The notes under the pieces were generated by a model, which saw only the letters and a program-made list of their open reading frames with translations, was not told the DNA's origin and ran no database searches. Shown here piece by piece: positions 21,367 through 56,430 of a DNA stretch of 64,000 nucleotides. Origin of the DNA: Halobacteriovoraceae bacterium (lineage in GTDB: Bacteria; Bdellovibrionota; Bacteriovoracia; Bacteriovoracales; Bacteriovoracaceae); contig PASN01000013.1 in the NCBI GenBank assembly GCA_002711995.1, positions 248,001 to 312,000 of the forward strand. The letters run 5' to 3'. Made by a program: the position numbers and the translations under genes. The number at the start of each line of letters is the position of its first letter. Position 1 is the first letter of the stretch.

Positions 21367-22743
21367 TTAGATACTACCACCATCATTGATGGTCCAGCTA
21401 TCGCTTATTAGGTTCGCTCTTGCTGTAGCAGCAGCTCCACCACTTGTATATTGAGAAGAGCCTGCGTGTAGAAACCCTCCAGAACCAGCGGTGGCGTCCA
21501 GCTGAATAAGTAAGTTGTCATAATTGGTTGTTGATATTGAAACGCCCTCGAACATTCCGACCATTAGTATTACATTTGTAAATTCCCAGTCAGACATATC
21601 TGGGTCTGCATTTGTGGCGTCCTTAAACATTTCATTCATATTAGTTACACTTGAAGTGTCCCAGTTGCTTGTATTTGGGTTTGCCGCAAAAGCATCTCTA
21701 AACATTCCACTCATGTCAGTAACATTTGAGGTATCCCAATTTATTGTGTTTGGTTGTGCGACATTTGCATGATCAAACATTTCTCTCATGCTGGTCACAT
21801 TTGAAGTGTCCCAATTGGTTGTGTCCGGATTTGCATCATAGGCATCTTTAAACATTTCAGTCATATCTGTTACACTGGAGGTGTCCCAATTGCTTGTGTC
21901 TGGTGTTGCATTATCTGCCCGTCTGAACATTTCACTCATGTCAGTTACATTGGAAGTGTCCCAGTTGGCTGTATGGGGAGTTGCTAAACTTGCTTCATAA
22001 AACATAGCTGACATATTGGTGACATTGGAAGTGTCACCACCGGATACAGTTGTTAAGTTGTCACAACCGTCAAAAGCATTTTCGAAACTTTTCCAACCAA
22101 CAGTTCCTAGCTCTGAAATTGAAATAATCTTCTCCCTGTCTCCTGAGAAGTTAAAATACCAGGCCTCAACGAGTCCTGAGATTGTGACTGTGTAATCTCC
22201 TGCTACGGCATAGGTGTGATCGATGTCAGGATCATTGTAAGAAGTTACTTCAGCTGTATTTCCATCACCCCAGTCCACTGTGAAGTCATAGTTAAAACCA
22301 CTTCTTAGTGGCAGCTCCACTGTTAGGTCAGGGCTTGATACTCGCCAGGTAGATACGAAAGGGACAATGTTTTTCACAGTTAAGTCTGCGCTTCCTGTGT
22401 CAGACGTTGTAGAGTCTCTGACAGTATAAGAAAAACTAGCACTACCTACTCCTGAAGGAGTGAGTCCTACTGTGCATTCTCCAGCTGTGCAAGAGCATGG
22501 TGTAGCTATAGAAAGTCCTACAGGATCAGACACACTACAGCTGGTTGGATTTGACACCTCTGAACTGTCATAAATTAGTGTTACTGTTTGTTCCGCTCCA
22601 TCAATAAGATTGGCAGAAGTACTGCTGCCTTCAGGTAGAGGACTATCTGGTAAAGCCCTTAGCTCGGAAACAATATCGCTAGTGGCCTTGCCACAGCCTG
22701 AAAAAATAAGACTCAATAGAATTAATAAACTAGCTACTTTCAT
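21367..22743 (-). CDS. Surface lipoprotein with PKD-like domain and six BspA/DUF285 repeats
   Basis: 458 residues. Lipobox SGC near residue 17. The N-terminal domain has four conserved Cys (CSVSDP and TPCSCTAGECTVG). A PKD-like beta domain (about 132-200) shows VDWGDGN, DHTYAVAGDYTVTISG. Residues 238-387 are six 25-residue repeats of the type TSNVTDMSEMF, ending PDTSNWD, the BspA/DUF285 leucine-rich-like repeat used for surface adhesion in other bacteria. A capping block YDNLLIQLDATA ending ARANLISDSWTINDGGSI closes the protein. It is the third and shortest of three tandem paralogues. A role in attachment is inferred from the family. Confidence 0.88.
   Translation of the reverse strand: MKVASLLILLSLIFSGCGKATSDIVSELRALPDSPLPEGSSTSANLIDGAEQTVTLIYDSSEVSNPTSCSVSDPVGLSIATPCSCTAGECTVGLTPSGVGSASFSYTVRDSTTSDTGSADLTVKNIVPFVSTWRVSSPDLTVELPLRSGFNYDFTVDWGDGNTAEVTSYNDPDIDHTYAVAGDYTVTISGLVEAWYFNFSGDREKIISISELGTVGWKSFENAFDGCDNLTTVSGGDTSNVTNMSAMFYEASLATPHTANWDTSNVTDMSEMFRRADNATPDTSNWDTSSVTDMTEMFKDAYDANPDTTNWDTSNVTSMREMFDHANVAQPNTINWDTSNVTDMSGMFRDAFAANPNTSNWDTSSVTNMNEMFKDATNADPDMSDWEFTNVILMVGMFEGVSISTTNYDNLLIQLDATAGSGGFLHAGSSQYTSGGAAATARANLISDSWTINDGGSI
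21583..22032 (-). repeat. Six 75-bp coding repeats (BspA/DUF285 type)
   Basis: Exactly 450 bases = 6 x 75 with no length variation, encoding residues 238-387 of the lipoprotein above. Each unit starts with T-S-(N/S)-V-T and ends N-W-D/E. A seventh, altered unit precedes the C-terminal cap. Confidence 0.88.
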
Positions 22744-22766
22744 ATTGTTTACTCTAACCTCATACC

Positions 22767-22779
22767 AATCTAGTCGGAA
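22767..22779 (-). promoter_or_regulatory. Upstream motif shared by two repeat-lipoprotein genes
   Basis: On the minus strand TTCCGACTAGATT, matching TTCCGTGTAGATT upstream of the 760-residue paralogue (25201-25213) at a similar distance (about 17-24 bases) from the start. TAGATT could serve as a -10 element. The third paralogue does not have it. Confidence 0.35.
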
Positions 22780-22901
22780 AAGGTTTAAAAATCTTTAATT
22801 TAAAACGTTAACCACTTGAAAGTACGCACTCTCGAAGAGGTTGGACCAGAAATCGATTCGAGCTACTTGGTTCAGTGGCGGAAGTTATTGGCACTTAGTG
22901 A

Positions 22902-25184
22902 CTAAATACTTCCATTATCGGTAAATACCCAGCCATCGGTTTCAAGTTGTGCCTTCGCTGCAGATGATGCACCTGAATGTTGTAGAGTACCTACATTAAT
23001 CTCTGCAGTTGTGGTGGCCGTAGCGTTTAGACTTATTAAAAGGTTGTCATAATTCGTAGTAGATAGGCCCGAACCTTGAAACATTTCACCTCTTGCATAG
23101 GATAGATCAAAGCGTGTAACACTTGAAAAGTCCCATGTACTAGTATCAGGATCTGCGTTTGTTGCATTAGTAAACATGCCACTCATATCGGTTACACTAG
23201 AAGTGACCCATCCACTCGTGTTCGGGTTTGCACTTGTTGCACCATTGAACATATCTGACATATTCGTAACATTAGATGTGTTCCAGCTACTGGTGATTGG
23301 GTTTGCATTCGTTGCGCCACTGAACATTGCAGACATATTTGTTACACTAGAAGTATTCCAACTACTGGTGTTGGGGGTTGCCGCAGACGCATTTAAAAAC
23401 ATGCCACTCATATTGGTAACGCTTGAAAGGTTCCAACTGCTCACATCTGGGTTGGCATTATTTGTCGCTGCAAACATAAAATTCATATCCGTAACGTTGG
23501 AGGTGTTCCAACCGCTCACGTTAGGGTTGGCCATTGTTGCGTCATAAAATAGCCTTCTCATGCTTGTAACATTAGATGTATTCCAACTAGTTGTATTCGG
23601 TGTGGCCGAGTGGGCACTTTCAAACATTGAAGACATTGTTGTAACCTTAGAAGTGTCCCAGCCACTTGTATCTGGATTGGCATCAAATGCCCTGTAAAAC
23701 ATGTTACTCATATTGGTTACGTTGGAAGTGTTCCATCCGCTTGTGTTTGGTGTTGCAACTTCCGCATAATAAAACATGGACGCCATATTGGTTACCTGTG
23801 ATGTGTCCAAACCACTTGTGTCTGGCCTTGCTAAACGAGCTTGCTGAAACATGTAACTCATATTTGTCACATTTGATGTGTCCCAACCACTAGTGTTTGG
23901 GTTGGCTACACTTGCACCATAGAACATCCTCCCCATATCAGTTACGCTAGAGGTGTCCCAACCACTAGTATCGGGTGTTGCTGATACTGCACCCGAGAAC
24001 ATGGAGGACATATCAGTTACTTTGGAGGTGTTCCATCCGCTGGTATCGGGGTTGGCCAAATCGGCTAACAAAAACATTGATGACATGTCTGTGACATTAG
24101 ATGTGTTCCATCCGTTAGTGTCGGGAGTCGCAGCATCTGCATCGTAGAACATTGAATTCATATCTGTAACTTTAGATGTGTCCCAACCACTGGTGTCAGG
24201 ATTCGCGAGGTCTGCACCAGTGAACATGCCACTCATGTTAGTAACATTTGAAGTATCCCAATTGCTGGTGTCTGGAGTTGCAGCATCCGCATTCCAAAAC
24301 ATGTTAAGCATGCTAGTAACTTTGGAAGTGTCCCAGCCGCTAGTGTCTGGATTTGCCTGACTTGCGAACATAAACATCGTGGCCATATTTGTAACATTTG
24401 ATGTATCCCAGCCACTTGTATCAGGGGTTACAAGGGAAGCATTGGTGAACATCATTAACATAGTTGTGACGTTCGAAGTTTCACCACCCGAAACCGTGGT
24501 TAATTGACTGCATCCATGGAAGGCACGCTCAAAGCTTTTCCATCCAACAGTACCTAGTTCCGAAATTGAAATTATCTTATTTCTGTCTCCCGATGAATTG
24601 AAATACCATGCTTCAACAAGTCCAGAAATTGTAATGACTTTGTCTCCCGCTGAACCATATGTATGAGTAATATCTGGATCGTTATAAGAGGTTACTTCGT
24701 CCGTATTTCCATCACCCCAATCAACAGTGAAGTTATAATTAAACCCATTCCTTAGAGGTAGTTCAACCGTTAGGTCTCCAGGTGTGACCCTCCAAGTTGA
24801 AACAAAGGGAACCATATTAGTAACTGTTATGTCGGATTCTCCAGAAGCGACTCCTTCTGTTCCAGAAATTGTGTAATCAAAACTAGCACTGCCTGTTTCA
24901 GTTGGTGTTACTCCAACTGTGCAGACTCCAGCAGTACAAGAACATGGGGTAGTGATAGCAATTCCAACAGGGTCAACTATGCTACAGCTAGTTGGATTTG
25001 AGATTGTTGAGCTGTCGTAATTTAATGTGACAGTTTGTTCATGAGCATCAATAAGAGTCACAATCGTTTTGCTACCTTCCACAAGGTCTCTCAACTGGTT
25101 TGTCACATCGCTTGTGGCACCACCACAGCTGGTTAATATGAATGAACTAATAATTAAAAAAGTGTTGGTAAATTTCATGAACAT
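22902..25184 (-). CDS. Large surface lipoprotein with PKD-like domain and 18 BspA/DUF285 repeats
   Basis: 760 residues (or 758 from the second ATG at 25178; GGGG lies 7 bases before the first). Lipobox TSC at about 18-20. The N-terminal Cys-containing domain and PKD-like domain (about 130-200, VDWGDGN and HTYGSAGD) are nearly identical in layout to the flanking paralogues. Residues 236-685 are 18 perfect-length 25-residue repeats with hydrophobic V, M and F positions at fixed sites. A degenerate 19th unit leads into the C-terminal cap (STTNYDNLLISLNATA to the end). Probably a cell-surface adhesin or ligand-binding stalk; this is inferred from the BspA family. Confidence 0.88.
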   Translation of the reverse strand: MFMKFTNTFLIISSFILTSCGGATSDVTNQLRDLVEGSKTIVTLIDAHEQTVTLNYDSSTISNPTSCSIVDPVGIAITTPCSCTAGVCTVGVTPTETGSASFDYTISGTEGVASGESDITVTNMVPFVSTWRVTPGDLTVELPLRNGFNYNFTVDWGDGNTDEVTSYNDPDITHTYGSAGDKVITISGLVEAWYFNSSGDRNKIISISELGTVGWKSFERAFHGCSQLTTVSGGETSNVTTMLMMFTNASLVTPDTSGWDTSNVTNMATMFMFASQANPDTSGWDTSKVTSMLNMFWNADAATPDTSNWDTSNVTNMSGMFTGADLANPDTSGWDTSKVTDMNSMFYDADAATPDTNGWNTSNVTDMSSMFLLADLANPDTSGWNTSKVTDMSSMFSGAVSATPDTSGWDTSSVTDMGRMFYGASVANPNTSGWDTSNVTNMSYMFQQARLARPDTSGLDTSQVTNMASMFYYAEVATPNTSGWNTSNVTNMSNMFYRAFDANPDTSGWDTSKVTTMSSMFESAHSATPNTTSWNTSNVTSMRRLFYDATMANPNVSGWNTSNVTDMNFMFAATNNANPDVSSWNLSSVTNMSGMFLNASAATPNTSSWNTSSVTNMSAMFSGATNANPITSSWNTSNVTNMSDMFNGATSANPNTSGWVTSSVTDMSGMFTNATNADPDTSTWDFSSVTRFDLSYARGEMFQGSGLSTTNYDNLLISLNATATTTAEINVGTLQHSGASSAAKAQLETDGWVFTDNGSI
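23130..24479 (-). repeat. Eighteen 75-bp coding repeats with a higher-order 150-bp pattern
   Basis: 1350 bases = 18 x 75 exactly. Consecutive units alternate between an ANP and an ATP triplet before DTSGWD (units 2-8 and 10-13), and TSNV with TSKV in units 2-7, so the array grew at least partly by duplication of two-unit (50-residue) blocks. Confidence 0.85.
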
Positions 25185-25200
25185 ATCTTAACCCCGTTAT

Positions 25201-25213
25201 AATCTACACGGAA
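25201..25213 (-). promoter_or_regulatory. Second copy of the shared upstream motif
   Basis: Minus strand TTCCGTGTAGATT, paired with the copy at 22767-22779. It lies 16 bases before the first ATG of the 760-residue lipoprotein gene. Confidence 0.35.
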
Positions 25214-25326
25214 TCAATTAAGAAAATCTTAACTTAAAAATGCTAAAGTATTGTAATCTAGTGAACTCTAAAACTGGAAAATTAAAATCATAAAGGCTGA
25301 TGGCAAGGTTTTGTGCCATAATTGGC

Positions 25327-26856
25327 CTAGATTGAGCCACCATCAGTGATTGCCCAACCATTGGCTATTAAGTTCGATCTGGCAGCCTCAGCTGCACCGC
25401 CTACATTATATTGAGTAGAGCCAACATCAAGACTTAGAGCAGAACCAAGAGCTGTGGCTTCTAGACTTATTAGCATGTTGTCGTAATTGACTGTGGATAA
25501 CGCCGCCCCAGTAAACATGTTTGATAAGGCAGTCACACTCGAAAAGTCGCATCCTGACATATCTGGATCGGCTAAGCTCGCATTATTAAACATACCCATC
25601 ATGTTGGTGACACTCGAAGTGTTCCAAGCACTAGTATTAGGGTTGGCCGCATGGGCGTTGTTAAACATTTGGGACATGCTTGTCACATTAGAAGTATCCC
25701 ATCCAGATGTGTCTGGATTGGCAATGTTTGCGTAAGCGAACATATGGCTCATGTTTGTAACATTAAAAGTGTTCCAATTTGTTGTATCTGGATTTGCTGC
25801 TGGTGCATTATAGAACATATCGCTCATGTCTGTAACATTAGAGGTATTCCAGCCACTCGTGTCAGGGGTTGCCGAAGTAGCACCCCGAAACATGTAGTTC
25901 ATATCAGTCACATTGGATGTGTTCCAATTACTTGTGTCTGGATTTGCGGACGTTGCACCGTAAAACATTGTGTTCATATCTGTGACAGATGATGTGTCCC
26001 ATGTGCTGGTATTTGGATTGGCAGAACTTGCTAAAGCAAATACTCCGGCCATATTGCTGATGTTGGATGTATTCCATCCGCTAGTGTCAGGATCTACTAA
26101 AGGTGCGTTATAAAACATGTAACTTATGTCAGTGACACTTGAGCTTACATCACCCGATACAGCTCCAAGATTACTGCAACCAAAAAAAGCGTAGTTAAAA
26201 CTTAACCAACCAACGTGGCCTAGATCGTTAATAGAAATCAGCTTATCTTTGTCTCCAATATTATTGAAGTACCATGTCTCAACTAGACCAGAAATTGTAA
26301 TGGTATAGTCCCCAGCAGAAGCGTAGCTATGATCAATATCTACATCGTTGTAGGCAGTCACTTCCGCTGTGTTCCCATCACCCCAATCAACAGTAAAGTT
26401 GTAATTAAAACCACTTCTAAGAGGCAGGGTAACTGTGAGGTCACCATCCCCGTAAGAAACATCTCCCACACGCCAAGTTGATACAAACGGAGGAGGAGAT
26501 ACGATATTAAAAATTCCTGACGCTGTATTGGAGCTTTTTCCATTTGAGAAATATCGATAATCAAAGCTTGCCACGCCGATGTAGTTTACGGTTCCAGTCA
26601 GGCCTACTGTGCATCTGCCGGCGTTGCAGGTGCAAGGTGTTGTTTCTGTAACATTTTGAAGATTTAAAACTTCACATGAAGTGGCGGACGAACCCATGAT
26701 CGGGAGGTTAATTAACTTTTCTGTTTCTTTTATTACACTTGGCCCATTGTAGTTTTGGGCGTACCTACCTGGAGCAATGTACGTCTCACCAGGAAGCACA
26801 TTGCAGCCAACTAAGATAAATATTGTGAATATTAGAAGTATGCGGATACCTGACAT
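25327..26856 (-). CDS. Surface lipoprotein with PKD-like domain and eight BspA/DUF285 repeats
   Basis: 509 residues, lipobox LVGC (Cys 18). The N-terminal domain is more diverged from the other two but keeps the CTCNAGRCTVGL element. The PKD-like domain (about 125-200) has VDWGDGN and DHSYASAGDYTITISG. Residues 238-437 are eight 25-residue repeats, then an altered repeat and a C-terminal cap very close to that of the 458-residue paralogue (ending AITDGGSI). It is the 5'-most of the three tandem genes on the minus strand. No clear ribosome site precedes the ATG. Confidence 0.86.
   Translation of the reverse strand: MSGIRILLIFTIFILVGCNVLPGETYIAPGRYAQNYNGPSVIKETEKLINLPIMGSSATSCEVLNLQNVTETTPCTCNAGRCTVGLTGTVNYIGVASFDYRYFSNGKSSNTASGIFNIVSPPPFVSTWRVGDVSYGDGDLTVTLPLRSGFNYNFTVDWGDGNTAEVTAYNDVDIDHSYASAGDYTITISGLVETWYFNNIGDKDKLISINDLGHVGWLSFNYAFFGCSNLGAVSGDVSSSVTDISYMFYNAPLVDPDTSGWNTSNISNMAGVFALASSANPNTSTWDTSSVTDMNTMFYGATSANPDTSNWNTSNVTDMNYMFRGATSATPDTSGWNTSNVTDMSDMFYNAPAANPDTTNWNTFNVTNMSHMFAYANIANPDTSGWDTSNVTSMSQMFNNAHAANPNTSAWNTSSVTNMMGMFNNASLADPDMSGCDFSSVTALSNMFTGAALSTVNYDNMLISLEATALGSALSLDVGSTQYNVGGAAEAARSNLIANGWAITDGGSI
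25546..26145 (-). repeat. Eight 75-bp coding repeats (BspA/DUF285 type)
   Basis: 600 bases = 8 x 75, residues 238-437 of the 509-residue lipoprotein. The unit phase and the starting residue (238) are the same as in the 458-residue paralogue, so the array boundaries are conserved while copy number differs. Confidence 0.85.
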
Positions 26857-35383: not shown

Positions 35384-36295
35384 ATGAAAAGACTACTATT
35401 TCTATTCACTTTACTTTTAAGTTTTTCCTTGTTTGCCAGCGAAACAGTAAAAACTAATATCTATAATCTGCTTGATCCACAGAGCGGGGACACTGAGTAT
35501 GTTCTCTTTGCATCCAATGGGTTTGTTTACGGAATCCCTGCTCAGGACCAAGGGCTTGCAGATAAAGCAAGGGAGGCCGTGGCCGGTGGCTTTCCTATTG
35601 AGTTAGTTCTTCTTGAGCAAACCGAGGAGGAGATTAAAAACAATGAAAGAGCCTCAGTAAAAGACATCAATGTTCTTGTGAATGAAACTCCATTCGCATC
35701 CCATTTTATGCCAAGAATGGAAGCACCTGCTTTTGTTGATCCTGAAACCTACATTACACCTATGAGCAATTTTTCCGTAACGAGGATTTCTCAGTCTCAG
35801 GCCAACAGTTTGTTCCGCTCTATGAGAAACGACCTAAGAAGCAAGTCCCAATGTTATAACCGAGCGCACGTTTGGAGTTGGGAGATCTATAACAAATATA
35901 GATACAACACTGGCAAGATGTTTCTCTTCTTCACTAGAAAGTATATCAATGAGTACCGGTATAAGTGGTGGTTCCACGTGGCGCCATTCATTAGCACAAC
36001 CGGCAGAAGCCAATACGTGGTTCTCGACAGACAGTATTTCTCAAGCCCAAGGGTTATGCATAGCTGGACAGACGCCTTTATGAAAAATAATGCACATTGC
36101 CCTGTCTTAACAAGATATTCAGCTTATAGTAGAAATCAATATAAAGAATACTGCTACCTGATTCCAGCATCAATGTATTATTGGCAGCCATGGAATTTAG
36201 ATTACTTGGAGAGATACCGTCAAACAAGAAGATCTTTTTACCAGCGAGACATCAACCACGCCTATAGAGACGCCCGTGGATGGTGGCCTTGGTAA
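35384..36295 (+). CDS. Secreted protein-glutaminase-like enzyme
   Basis: 303 residues with a clear signal peptide (1 to about 18) and AAAGGAG before the ATG. The C-terminal half matches the protein glutaminase (protein-glutamine deamidase) fold: catalytic Cys 157 in SQCYNRAHVWSW, His 198 in WWFHVAPF and Asp 215 in YVVLDRQYF, in the order and spacing of that family's Cys-His-Asp triad. Residues 20-130 look like a pro-region, as in the known zymogen enzymes. It would deamidate Gln side chains of outside proteins. In a predatory bacterium a prey-directed role is possible but is inference. Confidence 0.8.
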   Translation: MKRLLFLFTLLLSFSLFASETVKTNIYNLLDPQSGDTEYVLFASNGFVYGIPAQDQGLADKAREAVAGGFPIELVLLEQTEEEIKNNERASVKDINVLVNETPFASHFMPRMEAPAFVDPETYITPMSNFSVTRISQSQANSLFRSMRNDLRSKSQCYNRAHVWSWEIYNKYRYNTGKMFLFFTRKYINEYRYKWWFHVAPFISTTGRSQYVVLDRQYFSSPRVMHSWTDAFMKNNAHCPVLTRYSAYSRNQYKEYCYLIPASMYYWQPWNLDYLERYRQTRRSFYQRDINHAYRDARGWWPW

Positions 36296-36875: not shown

Positions 36876-37061
36876 TTTCTACATTTTTTTAAAAAAAACA
36901 AAAAAAATACTTTATTTTTTAATCATCCTTAGGTAATTACTTTTTCCGAAATGAACATTCTTTAAATATAAGGGAGCTCGTTTGAGATTTTGAACTGAAT
37001 CTGTAACTATCAGATTTACTAGAATCGATCTCGAATTAGTTATCCTACAAGTTTTGGTTAG

Positions 37062-37090
37062 GCCCTCCTTTTTGGAGGGCTTTTTTTTTT
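37062..37090 (+). terminator. Strong intrinsic terminator
   Basis: GCCCTCC (37062-37068), TTTTT loop, GGAGGGC (37074-37080), then ten T. It is 187 bases after the DUF1554 gene; the AT-rich stretch 36876-37061 has no gene I can support and could hold an untranslated tail or a small RNA. Confidence 0.9.
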
Positions 37091-38380
37091 CTAAAAACTA
37101 ACTTCTTTCTTCTCAATAATAGAACTTAAAGGAAGCTCAGAGTAAAGGTGAGGGAAGCCGCTCTCGATACGTAGATCCCAATCAGATGATGGCTGTATTT
37201 CCAGTAAAATTAAGTCCTTTGATCCTTTGAAAAAGCGCTCACCAGTTTCTTTTACCTGATGCTCAAAGGATAAATGAATAAATCCCTCACTCTTCAAAGA
37301 AGGTGGCGCGTAAGTGCCAGTTGATAACGCCTTTTCAAAAAGACCTTTCTCCGCAATGTGAAATAGCTTTCCACTTACAGTGGATGCAACTTTGGATACT
37401 GGAATATCTAGGGAGCACTTAAAGTGTCCAAGCGGACACTCTTTTTTTCCGTGAAGTCCACATGGTTGACACTCCAGTCGAGGAGTTCTGGTCACCACAA
37501 TGGAATCTTCGGCCAGTGGAGTGTACCCAAACTCCGGTATGGTGGAGCAAAAAATTGCTGTTGTTTTTGCGTTCACGCTGGATGCAAGGTGCAGGGGAGC
37601 GGAGTCATTAACGAAAACTCTGTCAGCATCCTTCATCAATCTTGCTGACTCTGGAAGAGATAGTTTTCCAGCAACATTGTGGCAATTGGAGACCCCATCG
37701 ATTATTTTATCAATATTTTCTTTATCGGAAGGCGCACCTATGAAAAATAGCTGAAAGTCTTTGGATAAGCTTTTTGCAAGCTCTGTCCACTTCCCAAAAG
37801 ACCACTGTTTTGTGAACCAAACGCTTGTGGGGGCGAGCACAATGTAAGGTGTTTTCTCTTTAGTTAGCTCAGCTATCTTTCTATTGATTTTCTCATTAAA
37901 GTAAAGCTTAGGTCTAACCACATCTGAAGGATTAAGCTCTTCTATGGCCGGAACCAATAACTGAGCGTTTCTTTGCACTTCGTGATAAGGGCCAGTGGCC
38001 GTTGAATGTGGAATCTTATGATCTATTTTATGGGTAAACAGAAAACTTGCGGGGTTTTGTTTAAAGCCTATTTTGTGCTTCGCTTTTGAAAGGCCTGTGG
38101 CCAGTCCACTATTTAAAAATCTTTGTATGTTAAAAACCGCAAAGTAATCATTATTTCTAATTTGTTTAATATTTTGAATTAGGCTTGAAAGTTTTCTCTT
38201 TTTGTTCCAAATAAGGACTTCATTAATATATGGATTGTTTTGTAGAAGGGACTCGTTTCCCTTTCGGACAAGTATATCGATTTTCCAGGCAGGCCGATGC
38301 TTGTGTATGGACTCAATCATTGAAGTCGCAAGGATGACATCACCGATAAATGCCGTCTGAATGACAAGAACTCGTTTCAT
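37091..38380 (-). CDS. Heptosyltransferase (GT9, WaaF-like) fused to a C-terminal DUF952 domain
   Basis: 429 residues. Residues 1-335 are a glycosyltransferase family 9 heptosyltransferase: start MKRVLVIQTAFIGDVILATS, acceptor-side LAPTSVWFTKQW, and the donor loop DADRVFVNDSAPLHLA with the VNDSAP motif. It would add L-glycero-D-manno-heptose from ADP-heptose to the LPS inner core at the inner membrane. Residues 339-425 are a complete DUF952 domain: LFHIAEKGLFEKAL, Y-A-P-P-S, EGFIHLSFEHQV, FPHLYSELPLSSI. This fusion is unusual. The start overlaps the stop of the upstream GT2 gene in an ATGA. Confidence 0.88.
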   Translation of the reverse strand: MKRVLVIQTAFIGDVILATSMIESIHKHRPAWKIDILVRKGNESLLQNNPYINEVLIWNKKRKLSSLIQNIKQIRNNDYFAVFNIQRFLNSGLATGLSKAKHKIGFKQNPASFLFTHKIDHKIPHSTATGPYHEVQRNAQLLVPAIEELNPSDVVRPKLYFNEKINRKIAELTKEKTPYIVLAPTSVWFTKQWSFGKWTELAKSLSKDFQLFFIGAPSDKENIDKIIDGVSNCHNVAGKLSLPESARLMKDADRVFVNDSAPLHLASSVNAKTTAIFCSTIPEFGYTPLAEDSIVVTRTPRLECQPCGLHGKKECPLGHFKCSLDIPVSKVASTVSGKLFHIAEKGLFEKALSTGTYAPPSLKSEGFIHLSFEHQVKETGERFFKGSKDLILLEIQPSSDWDLRIESGFPHLYSELPLSSIIEKKEVSF

Positions 38381-39165
38381 TTTTTCTGTAGCTGCTCTGG
38401 GAAGGTTTCCCCCGCATGCATTCTCATTACTTTTACATTCCTAATAAATACATTCCACGCGCCAAAGCATGAGATTATGAATCCAGGCCTTCCGTCCAAG
38501 AAGCCTTTTTGAAGGACGTATCTTTTAAGAAAAGCAAAGAATGGCTTAATTAGAAGGTGGTAGGCAGTGACCTTTTTTATTTTATTCACTCTATCCAGAG
38601 CGGCCCATGTGGTGTATCTCTCACCCTTTCTAAGGTGTGAGATGAGACCCTTGCCTTTATAAGTGTCGTGGATGAGCTTGTTCTTTAGTCTACCTATAGG
38701 GCCATCAGCCTCAATTTCAGCGTGAACGTGCTTGTCTTGGTATTTGCATTTGCTCTTTCTAAATAAGCGAATAACAGCATCGCCTTTCCAAACATGTTTA
38801 AGCTCTTGATCCATGAAGTAGTTGGTCCTTCCAATCCAGAAGGCAACTTCTTTAGGATTTGAGGCCACAGTATCTTTGATTTCTTTTACTGTCTCAGGAA
38901 GGGTTCTTTCATCGGCATCTAAAAGAAAGATCCAGTCATGTTGGGCCTGGGGAATTGTCCAGTTTTTCTGCGCTGCGCTGTGCACATATTCATGTTCTAA
39001 AAGCTTCACATGAGGAAAACTCTTTATAATTTCGACTGTTCTATCAGTGCTAAAAGAATCAACACAGATTATTTCATCTGCGAATTCGCATGATTTGATT
39101 GCGTCAGCGATATTACGCTCTTCATTAAAACAGGGGATGATTGCAGTGATTTTTTCCATAAGCAT
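38377..39165 (-). CDS. GT2 glycosyltransferase of LPS core (WaaE/KdtX-like)
   Basis: 262 residues. GT-A fold with TAIIPCFNEERNI at the N-terminus, VDSFSTDRT, and the DLDADERTLP segment (the DxD donor site). The LPS-core WaaE/KdtX group has this size and the LRKGERYTTWAA and KPFFAFLKRYVLQKGFLDG C-terminal segments, which are visible here. The first gene of a two-gene LPS-core unit with the GT9 enzyme (ATGA overlap). An in-frame ATG at 39159 is an alternative start; neither has a clear ribosome site. Confidence 0.82.
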   Translation of the reverse strand: MLMEKITAIIPCFNEERNIADAIKSCEFADEIICVDSFSTDRTVEIIKSFPHVKLLEHEYVHSAAQKNWTIPQAQHDWIFLLDADERTLPETVKEIKDTVASNPKEVAFWIGRTNYFMDQELKHVWKGDAVIRLFRKSKCKYQDKHVHAEIEADGPIGRLKNKLIHDTYKGKGLISHLRKGERYTTWAALDRVNKIKKVTAYHLLIKPFFAFLKRYVLQKGFLDGRPGFIISCFGAWNVFIRNVKVMRMHAGETFPEQLQKK

Positions 39166-55425: not shown

Positions 55426-56430
55426 ATGATCGTGGTTACAGGAGCTGCAGGCTTTATTGGCAGCTGTATAGTTAAGAAGTTAAATGATGAAGGACATACA
55501 AATATTATATGCGTAGACAGGTTTAGAGATGGCGAGAAATGGCTAAACTTAAGAGGGTTAAAATTCTATGAGTTTGCCCACGCTGACGAGTTTGTTGAAC
55601 CTGAAATTTTGAACTCTATTTTTGATGAGGGAGTAACAGCCATTTACCATATGGGCGCTTGCTCATCCACTACTGAAAAGAATGTGGATTTCCTCTGGAA
55701 AAACAATGTTGAGTTCTCTCAAATACTTTTCAGATATGCATCCGAGTATGACACTCCAATATGCTACGCTTCTAGTGCGGCAACATATGGGGCCGGCGAG
55801 AATGGCTACGATGACAATGAAGCTGAAATCTCAAAGTTAATGCCTCTTAATCCATACGGCTATTCTAAACAAGTTTTTGATGAGTGGGTTTTAAAACAAC
55901 TTCGCACTCCAAAGAAATGGTTTGGGGTAAAGTTTTTCAACGTTTATGGGCCGAATGAGTATCACAAGGGAAAGATGAGATCTGTGGTTCATCAGGCCTT
56001 TGGTCAAATCAAAGAAACTGGAAAGATGAAGTTGTTCAAAAGCTACAACCCCGACTTCAAGGATGGCGAGCAGCTTAGAGACTTTGTTTATGTAAAAGAT
56101 GTCGTAGAGGCAATGTACCAACTAATGAATGATGGACACACTGGCGCAAATGGAATTTACAACCTGGGAACCGGCAAAGCGAGAAGCTTTGTGGATCTAG
56201 TAAAGGCAACGTTTGCGGCGATGGGTGAGAAAGAAGATATTGAATTTGTGGAAATGCCTGAAAACCTCAGAGGGCAATATCAATACTTCACAGAAGCCAA
56301 AATGGACAAGCTTTACCAAGCGCTTCCAAATTTTAAGTTTCACTCTCTTGAAGAAGGCGTAAAAGACTATGTCCAAAACCACCTTCAAAAAGACAACCCT
56401 AGATTGGTTTTTAATCAGGTAGAGCGATGA
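55426..56430 (+). CDS. hldD: ADP-L-glycero-D-manno-heptose 6-epimerase
   Basis: 334 residues. Short-chain epimerase making ADP-L,D-heptose for LPS core. NAD site MIVVTGAAGFIGSCIVKKL (Rossmann GxxGxxG), DRFRDGEKWLNLRGL, and the YxxxK site in NPYGYSKQVFDEW. RDFVYVKD and a C-terminal E-epimerase tail are present. AGGGAG before the ATG. Supplies the GT9 heptosyltransferase encoded at 37-38 kb. Confidence 0.97.
   Translation: MIVVTGAAGFIGSCIVKKLNDEGHTNIICVDRFRDGEKWLNLRGLKFYEFAHADEFVEPEILNSIFDEGVTAIYHMGACSSTTEKNVDFLWKNNVEFSQILFRYASEYDTPICYASSAATYGAGENGYDDNEAEISKLMPLNPYGYSKQVFDEWVLKQLRTPKKWFGVKFFNVYGPNEYHKGKMRSVVHQAFGQIKETGKMKLFKSYNPDFKDGEQLRDFVYVKDVVEAMYQLMNDGHTGANGIYNLGTGKARSFVDLVKATFAAMGEKEDIEFVEMPENLRGQYQYFTEAKMDKLYQALPNFKFHSLEEGVKDYVQNHLQKDNPRLVFNQVER

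Follow-up and report, generated by a model that had tools for sequence, protein, structure and literature searches.

One open reading frame in the window (the whole 64,000-nucleotide stretch of Halobacteriovoraceae DNA that was analysed) encodes a protein of glycosyltransferase family 9 (GT9) that continues without interruption into a complete DUF952 domain. The likeliest reading of this arrangement is a gene fusion private to the lineage; its insertion site is well defined, and a sister species preserves the form without the insert. The GT9-DUF952 combination is new in everything that was searched, whereas both families and the placement of DUF952 in the ART clan were already known. The features of the locus are listed in Table 1.

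Table 1. Positions of the fused gene, its parts and the related features of the window.
Feature	Position	Strand	Details and basis
Fused GT9-DUF952 gene	37091..38380	-	ATG start, 429 aa, single uninterrupted frame
GT9 domain (heptosyltransferase-family)	37376..38380	-	Residues 1-335; Glyco_transf_9 (PF01075) at residues 71-308, 111.6 bits (cut-off 22) by Pfam scan; orthologue alignment
Junction SGKL, first codons of insert	37364..37375	-	Residues 336-339; DNA alignment, codon table
DUF952 domain and stop codon, predicted ART-like fold	37091..37375	-	Residues 336-429; DUF952 (PF06108) at residues 345-423, 64.1 bits (cut-off 23.7) by Pfam scan; ~275 bp insert
GT2 glycosyltransferase, upstream gene, probably same operon	38377..39165	-	PF00535, 70 bits; synteny
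Terminator-like hairpin gccctcc-aaaaa-ggagggc	37060..37090	-	Directly downstream of fused gene; by eye and G001 alignment
hldD, ADP-glyceromanno-heptose 6-epimerase	55426..56430	+	TIGR02197, 387.5 bits (cut-off 274.6)

Domain composition of the fused protein

Both domains claimed by the first-pass annotation were confirmed in one protein, since each scored above its Pfam cut-off within the same frame. Both domains were complete, with a spacing of approximately 3 residues between them. The score of the DUF952 match rules out that the domain lacks a profile match, and the landmarks that had been read for it (FHI, SEGFIHLS and FPHLYS-LPL) were all found in the sequence. The genome had five GT9 matches in total, while a whole-genome search showed that the fused copy (67.8 bits, stop-free) was its sole DUF952.

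The description of residues 1-335 as a normal GT9 enzyme also held. The GT9 part aligned over its full length with eight unfused orthologues at 41-67% identity and reached their usual C-terminus, and the conserved positions of a nine-orthologue alignment were kept (GD 13-14, NDS 258-260 and the C-terminal cysteines). The protein therefore resembles the GT9 LPS heptosyltransferases WaaC, WaaF and WaaQ (PF01075) in its full-length family match, GD and C-terminal Cys motif, but it differs from them in carrying an extra C-terminal domain and in scoring below every trusted cut-off of the WaaC/WaaF/WaaQ NCBIfam equivalogs (best TIGR02201, 118.3 vs 170.2). The unfused sister GT9 missed these trusted cut-offs likewise. 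With the GT9 half below all of the cut-offs, its name stops at heptosyltransferase-family, short of an acceptor position.

The fused GT9, which has close unfused orthologues within the family, adjoins the GT2 gene; the latter shares 4 bp with the start of the GT9 gene and showed 90% identity to the GT2 of the sister species. The presence of hldD in the window makes it very likely that ADP-heptose is made by this genome.

Distribution of the GT9-DUF952 architecture

A second GT9-DUF952 join was not found among 369 Bdellovibrionota genomes (129 of the family), 65 of which carried DUF952. The other DUF952 frames of the phylum were at most 384 codons long and the long ones were read individually; the 384-codon frame of G206 contained no DUF952 protein by motif filter and had no GT9 profile match. 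DUF952 was found in 34 of 195 Myxococcota genomes. Five of these had DUF952 frames longer than 330 codons, which were read and showed GT9 in none; frames of up to 330 codons are too short for a GT9 (~335 aa) plus DUF952.

For a wider survey, genomes from 84,980 species were scanned with a three-sequence DUF952 alignment as query and 80 loci were kept, with no GT9 fused or adjacent in their flanks (mostly 1.5-3 kb). The GT9 profile was also run over 121 DUF952 loci, where the only match was the window's own locus. A genome-contig scan with a single DUF952 sequence as query gave no confirmed match, and no relative was found in viral contigs (DUF952 and GT9 alignments as queries) or in phage records. 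Plasmid records produced GT9s and DUF952s as separate matches only, with one Cupriavidus GT9 match reaching residue 368 (21% identity). The range of the architecture, which had been proposed for checking, was thus this genome only among the genomes searched; it is unique within that set, in which the sampling of Pseudomonadota and other phyla consisted of the 80 loci alone. The literature search found no paper on GT9-DUF952 or on DUF952 function; solved structures of DUF952 exist, with no activity reported in the literature searched.

Origin of the fusion

Comparison with G001, a genome of the same genus, showed that the near-side gene order matched that of the window, including the glutamine synthetase III, Gln_deamidase_2 and DUF1554 genes. 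Beyond the DUF1554 gene, a GT9 and then a GT2 were found on the opposite strand, as in the window, and in G002 the conserved gene order extended past the GT2. The GT9 of G001 (67% identity) terminates in ...EQVASTVK*, followed by a terminator and intergenic DNA near-identical to those of the window. At the same site the window reads ...SKVASTVSGK-LFHIAEKG..., with approximately 275 bp of DUF952-coding DNA where G001 has its stop. Unfused close orthologues were found in ten family members, namely G001 at the identity given above, and G002 and eight others at 41-57%.

According to the proposed course of events, a segment encoding the whole DUF952 would have entered an ordinary GT9 gene at its 3' end, after the last codons and ahead of the terminator, with loss of the GT9 stop codon. 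Relative-rate counts of private changes in the fused GT9 and in the sister were 14/21, 20/18 and 24/20 with three outgroups; by these counts the evolution of the fused GT9 has not accelerated relative to its unfused counterpart in the sister. In codon usage (z -0.65) and in GC, the inserted part was ordinary for the window, and the insert is therefore not visibly fresh foreign DNA. In a DUF952 tree made to trace the donor, the fused domain was on a long branch and tended to join a Myxococcaceae sequence (94/83). Grouping of the fused domain with the family's own DUF952 clade (p 0.136) or with the G002 copy (p 0.268) was not rejected by the AU test.

Relocation of a DUF952 native to the genus was considered as a source and dropped, as the apparent stand-alone copy of G001 is probably contamination and the neighbour of the G002 copy is absent from G000. 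The G001 copy is on a 4.9-kb contig (G001:C216, L053) with thioesterase and DUF952 genes; over 3273 bp this contig shared 99.97% identity with G090, a genome of another genus. This contig probably represents binning contamination, which would leave no basis for a native stand-alone DUF952 in G001.

The Gln_deamidase_2 protein of the window has a 478-aa relative in G002 (L052:4975-6411; 35% identity), where a stand-alone DUF952 gene adjoins it. In the window, the Gln_deamidase_2 gene (35384-36295) is located two genes from the fused DUF952. The shared proximity to Gln_deamidase_2 is probably a coincidence because the G002 neighbour gene, tested as a 490-aa ORF, was absent from G000. Also in G002, an AlkB-like ORF (L051:9314-9946) and the unfused GT9 gene are convergent, with the ORF facing the GT9 3' end; the ORF is absent from this position in the window and in G001.

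Conserved residues and predicted fold of DUF952

All residues that were invariant in a 16-row DUF952 alignment were kept in the fused domain (H341, Y357, G366, F367, H369, S371, Q375, E406, F409, P410, H411 and Y413). The residues F367, H369, S371, Q375, F409, P410, H411 and Y413 were also invariant in a 54-row alignment, where H341 occurred in at least 90%. CC0527 and a Rhizobium relative carry Lys in place of H341. Identity of the fused DUF952 to the relatives compared was 29-45%. Retention of all invariant residues at this identity is consistent with selection on the DUF952 domain, as judged from the relatives, with the fusion itself known from one genome. The loop before FPHLY was shorter in the fused domain than in the relatives.

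Structure prediction, which had been suggested as a check, produced a confident and ART-like model of the DUF952 domain (AF2 with 53 relatives, pLDDT 97.5). The full-length protein model had a pLDDT of 60, and its GT9 part was modelled poorly because only DUF952 relatives served as alignment rows. The best fold match of the DUF952 model was CC0527 of Caulobacter (Z 15.2, rmsd 1.3 over 93 residues), and the next best was the C-terminal NAD+ lobe of the archaeal tRNA 2'-phosphotransferase Tpt1/KptA (Z 9.8). Overall, Tpt1/KptA matches had Z 8-10 over 79-87 residues and other ART chains Z 7-9. The model thus indicates that DUF952 has an ART-like fold. DUF952 is assigned to the ART clan in Pfam (PMC7955679), and SCOP places CC0527-like proteins at d.166.1.7, among the ADPRT codes (PMC3000352).

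In Tpt1, the His of the HGT motif contacts the adenosine ribose (PMC6333775). Going by the aligned ranges of the model, H341 in the first strand of DUF952 would fall at this His. Among the conserved DUF952 residues, nothing corresponded to the HGT Thr or to the three-Arg phosphate cage of Tpt1. When PDB sequences were searched by profile for ART enzymes, CC0527 alone was returned, with no sequence-level match to Tpt1. In comparison, the window domain is like the DUF952/CC0527-like proteins (PF06108; PDB 2O0Q, 2O0P and 2JQN) in Pfam match, invariant residues and fold, but it is located C-terminal to a glycosyltransferase whereas theirs is usually stand-alone or on other enzymes. Its likeness to Tpt1/KptA and other ART-fold enzymes consists of the next best fold match and the predicted position of H341, while it differs from Tpt1/KptA in having no RNA lobe and no conserved counterpart of the HGT Thr or the Arg cage.

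Fusion partners of DUF952

Pfam scans of other fused DUF952 proteins identified ArsC, GNAT (three cases), methyltransferase, GST, GIY-YIG and DJ-1/PfpI as partners, with DUF952 in either N- or C-terminal position. One further DUF952 protein had a thioredoxin-like ferredoxin match below the cut-off, and in one family lineage a thioesterase gene overlaps the DUF952 gene. Like the window protein, these fusions (DUF952-GNAT, -methyltransferase, -ArsC and -DJ-1/PfpI; GST-DUF952; GIY-YIG-DUF952) consist of one intact DUF952 and an unrelated enzyme; the window protein differs in that its partner is a GT9, and no other GT9 partner was found. DUF952 was frequent in Nocardia, Mycobacterium, Bacillus and cyanobacteria. 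Nocardia, Mycobacterium and Bacillus are bacteria without LPS. Taken together, the diverse partners, the LPS-free carriers and the N- or C-terminal placement argue for a general, self-contained activity of DUF952 and not for heptose chemistry.

Such fusions are among the few leads on DUF952, and GT9 adds a partner to them. The diversity of partners is too wide for DUF952 to be read as a sugar domain and its role is presumably more general. The finding is a modest one that mainly teaches how promiscuous DUF952 is as a fusion partner. The locus is a clean example of domain gain in that the sister species preserves the site lacking the insert.

Possible function of the fusion

The reading that we favour, and hold to be reasonably probable, is a private fusion of a working GT9 with an intact ART-like module that does its own NAD+/ADP-ribose-type job. 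On this reading, GT9 would still add a heptose-type sugar to the LPS core. DUF952 would work autonomously on an ADP-containing ligand of the NAD+/ADP-ribose type, either as an enzyme or as a binding module. DUF952 would then be merely tethered to and co-expressed with GT9, as it is with unrelated enzymes elsewhere. Against this autonomy, the kept DUF952 residues could reflect coupling to GT9, and a linker of three residues is short if the tethered domain is to move freely.

The first-pass annotation had proposed that DUF952 acts on heptose or a nucleotide-sugar, or that it regulates the GT9. This heptose-related or regulatory interpretation is weakly supported and finds no backing among related sequences, as the other fusion partners are unrelated to it, the domain is frequent in the bacteria named above and no GT9 was found in the flanks of the other DUF952 loci that were read. 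A weaker form of the claim stands, because the ART-like fold makes an ADP-carrying ligand plausible, and ADP-heptose would be one such ligand in this cell. Coupling in which DUF952 binds, hydrolyses or senses ADP-heptose or ADP, or ADP-ribosylates GT9, and thereby regulates core-heptose transfer, is a possible but unlikely explanation. The ADP half is common to the ADP-heptose donor and NAD+, and the predicted ART-like fold, the hldD gene in the window and the minimal linker between DUF952 and GT9 all fit with it. So does G035 (L004:2-1839), with an hldD-like epimerase, a DksA/TraR-like zinc-finger gene and a stand-alone DUF952 in this order, but this neighbourhood is a single case. Moreover, the ten close GT9 orthologues are without DUF952, no GT9 was located near any other DUF952 locus that was read, and the domain is frequent in LPS-free bacteria with partners unrelated to sugars. 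If coupling is true, NAD+/ADP-ribose-type chemistry would be linked to LPS core assembly. A role of DUF952 in sensing or processing ADP-heptose or the ADP product, or in modifying the transferase via NAD+, is in itself improbable; if true, this protein would be the first GT9 to carry an ADP-ribosyl-type control module of its own and would provide the first functional handle on DUF952. Apart from the G035 locus, no DUF952 gene was noticed beside a gene of the heptose pathway.

It is also doubtful, and quite improbable in our judgement, that the domain is a neutral or decaying tail, in which loss of the stop codon would have extended translation into a DUF952 copy of no remaining importance. The occurrence of the fusion in one genome only, the patchy distribution of DUF952 in the phylum (65/369 genomes, hence dispensable) and the shortened loop before FPHLY would agree with such a tail; however, all family-invariant residues and a very confident predicted fold were kept despite identities of at most 45% to the relatives compared, which speaks against such a tail.

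The codon table of the junction showed no in-frame ATG, GTG or TTG between the GT9 end and the first DUF952 strand, and DUF952 as written could therefore be produced only as a fusion. The frameshift artefact against which the first-pass annotation had cautioned, in which adjacent overlapping GT9 and DUF952 genes were joined by a one-base indel in assembly or sequencing, was kept because some alterations of a single base at the junction would yield a pair of overlapping ORFs, with a start codon a little ahead of the first strand of DUF952. The artefact is very unlikely because the remaining genes of the region are intact, full-length and collinear with orthologues in two sister genomes, and in addition the frame runs through the conserved GT9 C-terminus VASTV directly into DUF952 and a clear ribosome-binding site before the hypothetical DUF952 start was not seen by eye.

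Other observations

Inspection by eye of DUF952 proteins at four loci (L070, L071, L073 and L078) showed an apparent N-terminal signal peptide, and LysR-type-looking regulators were found beside three of them. These proteins are possible exported forms of the ART-like domain. Finally, three consecutive lipoprotein-like genes consisting of repeated DTSNVTDMSxMF units (BspA/DUF285-like repeats) were identified elsewhere in the window, at 21367-26856 on the reverse strand.
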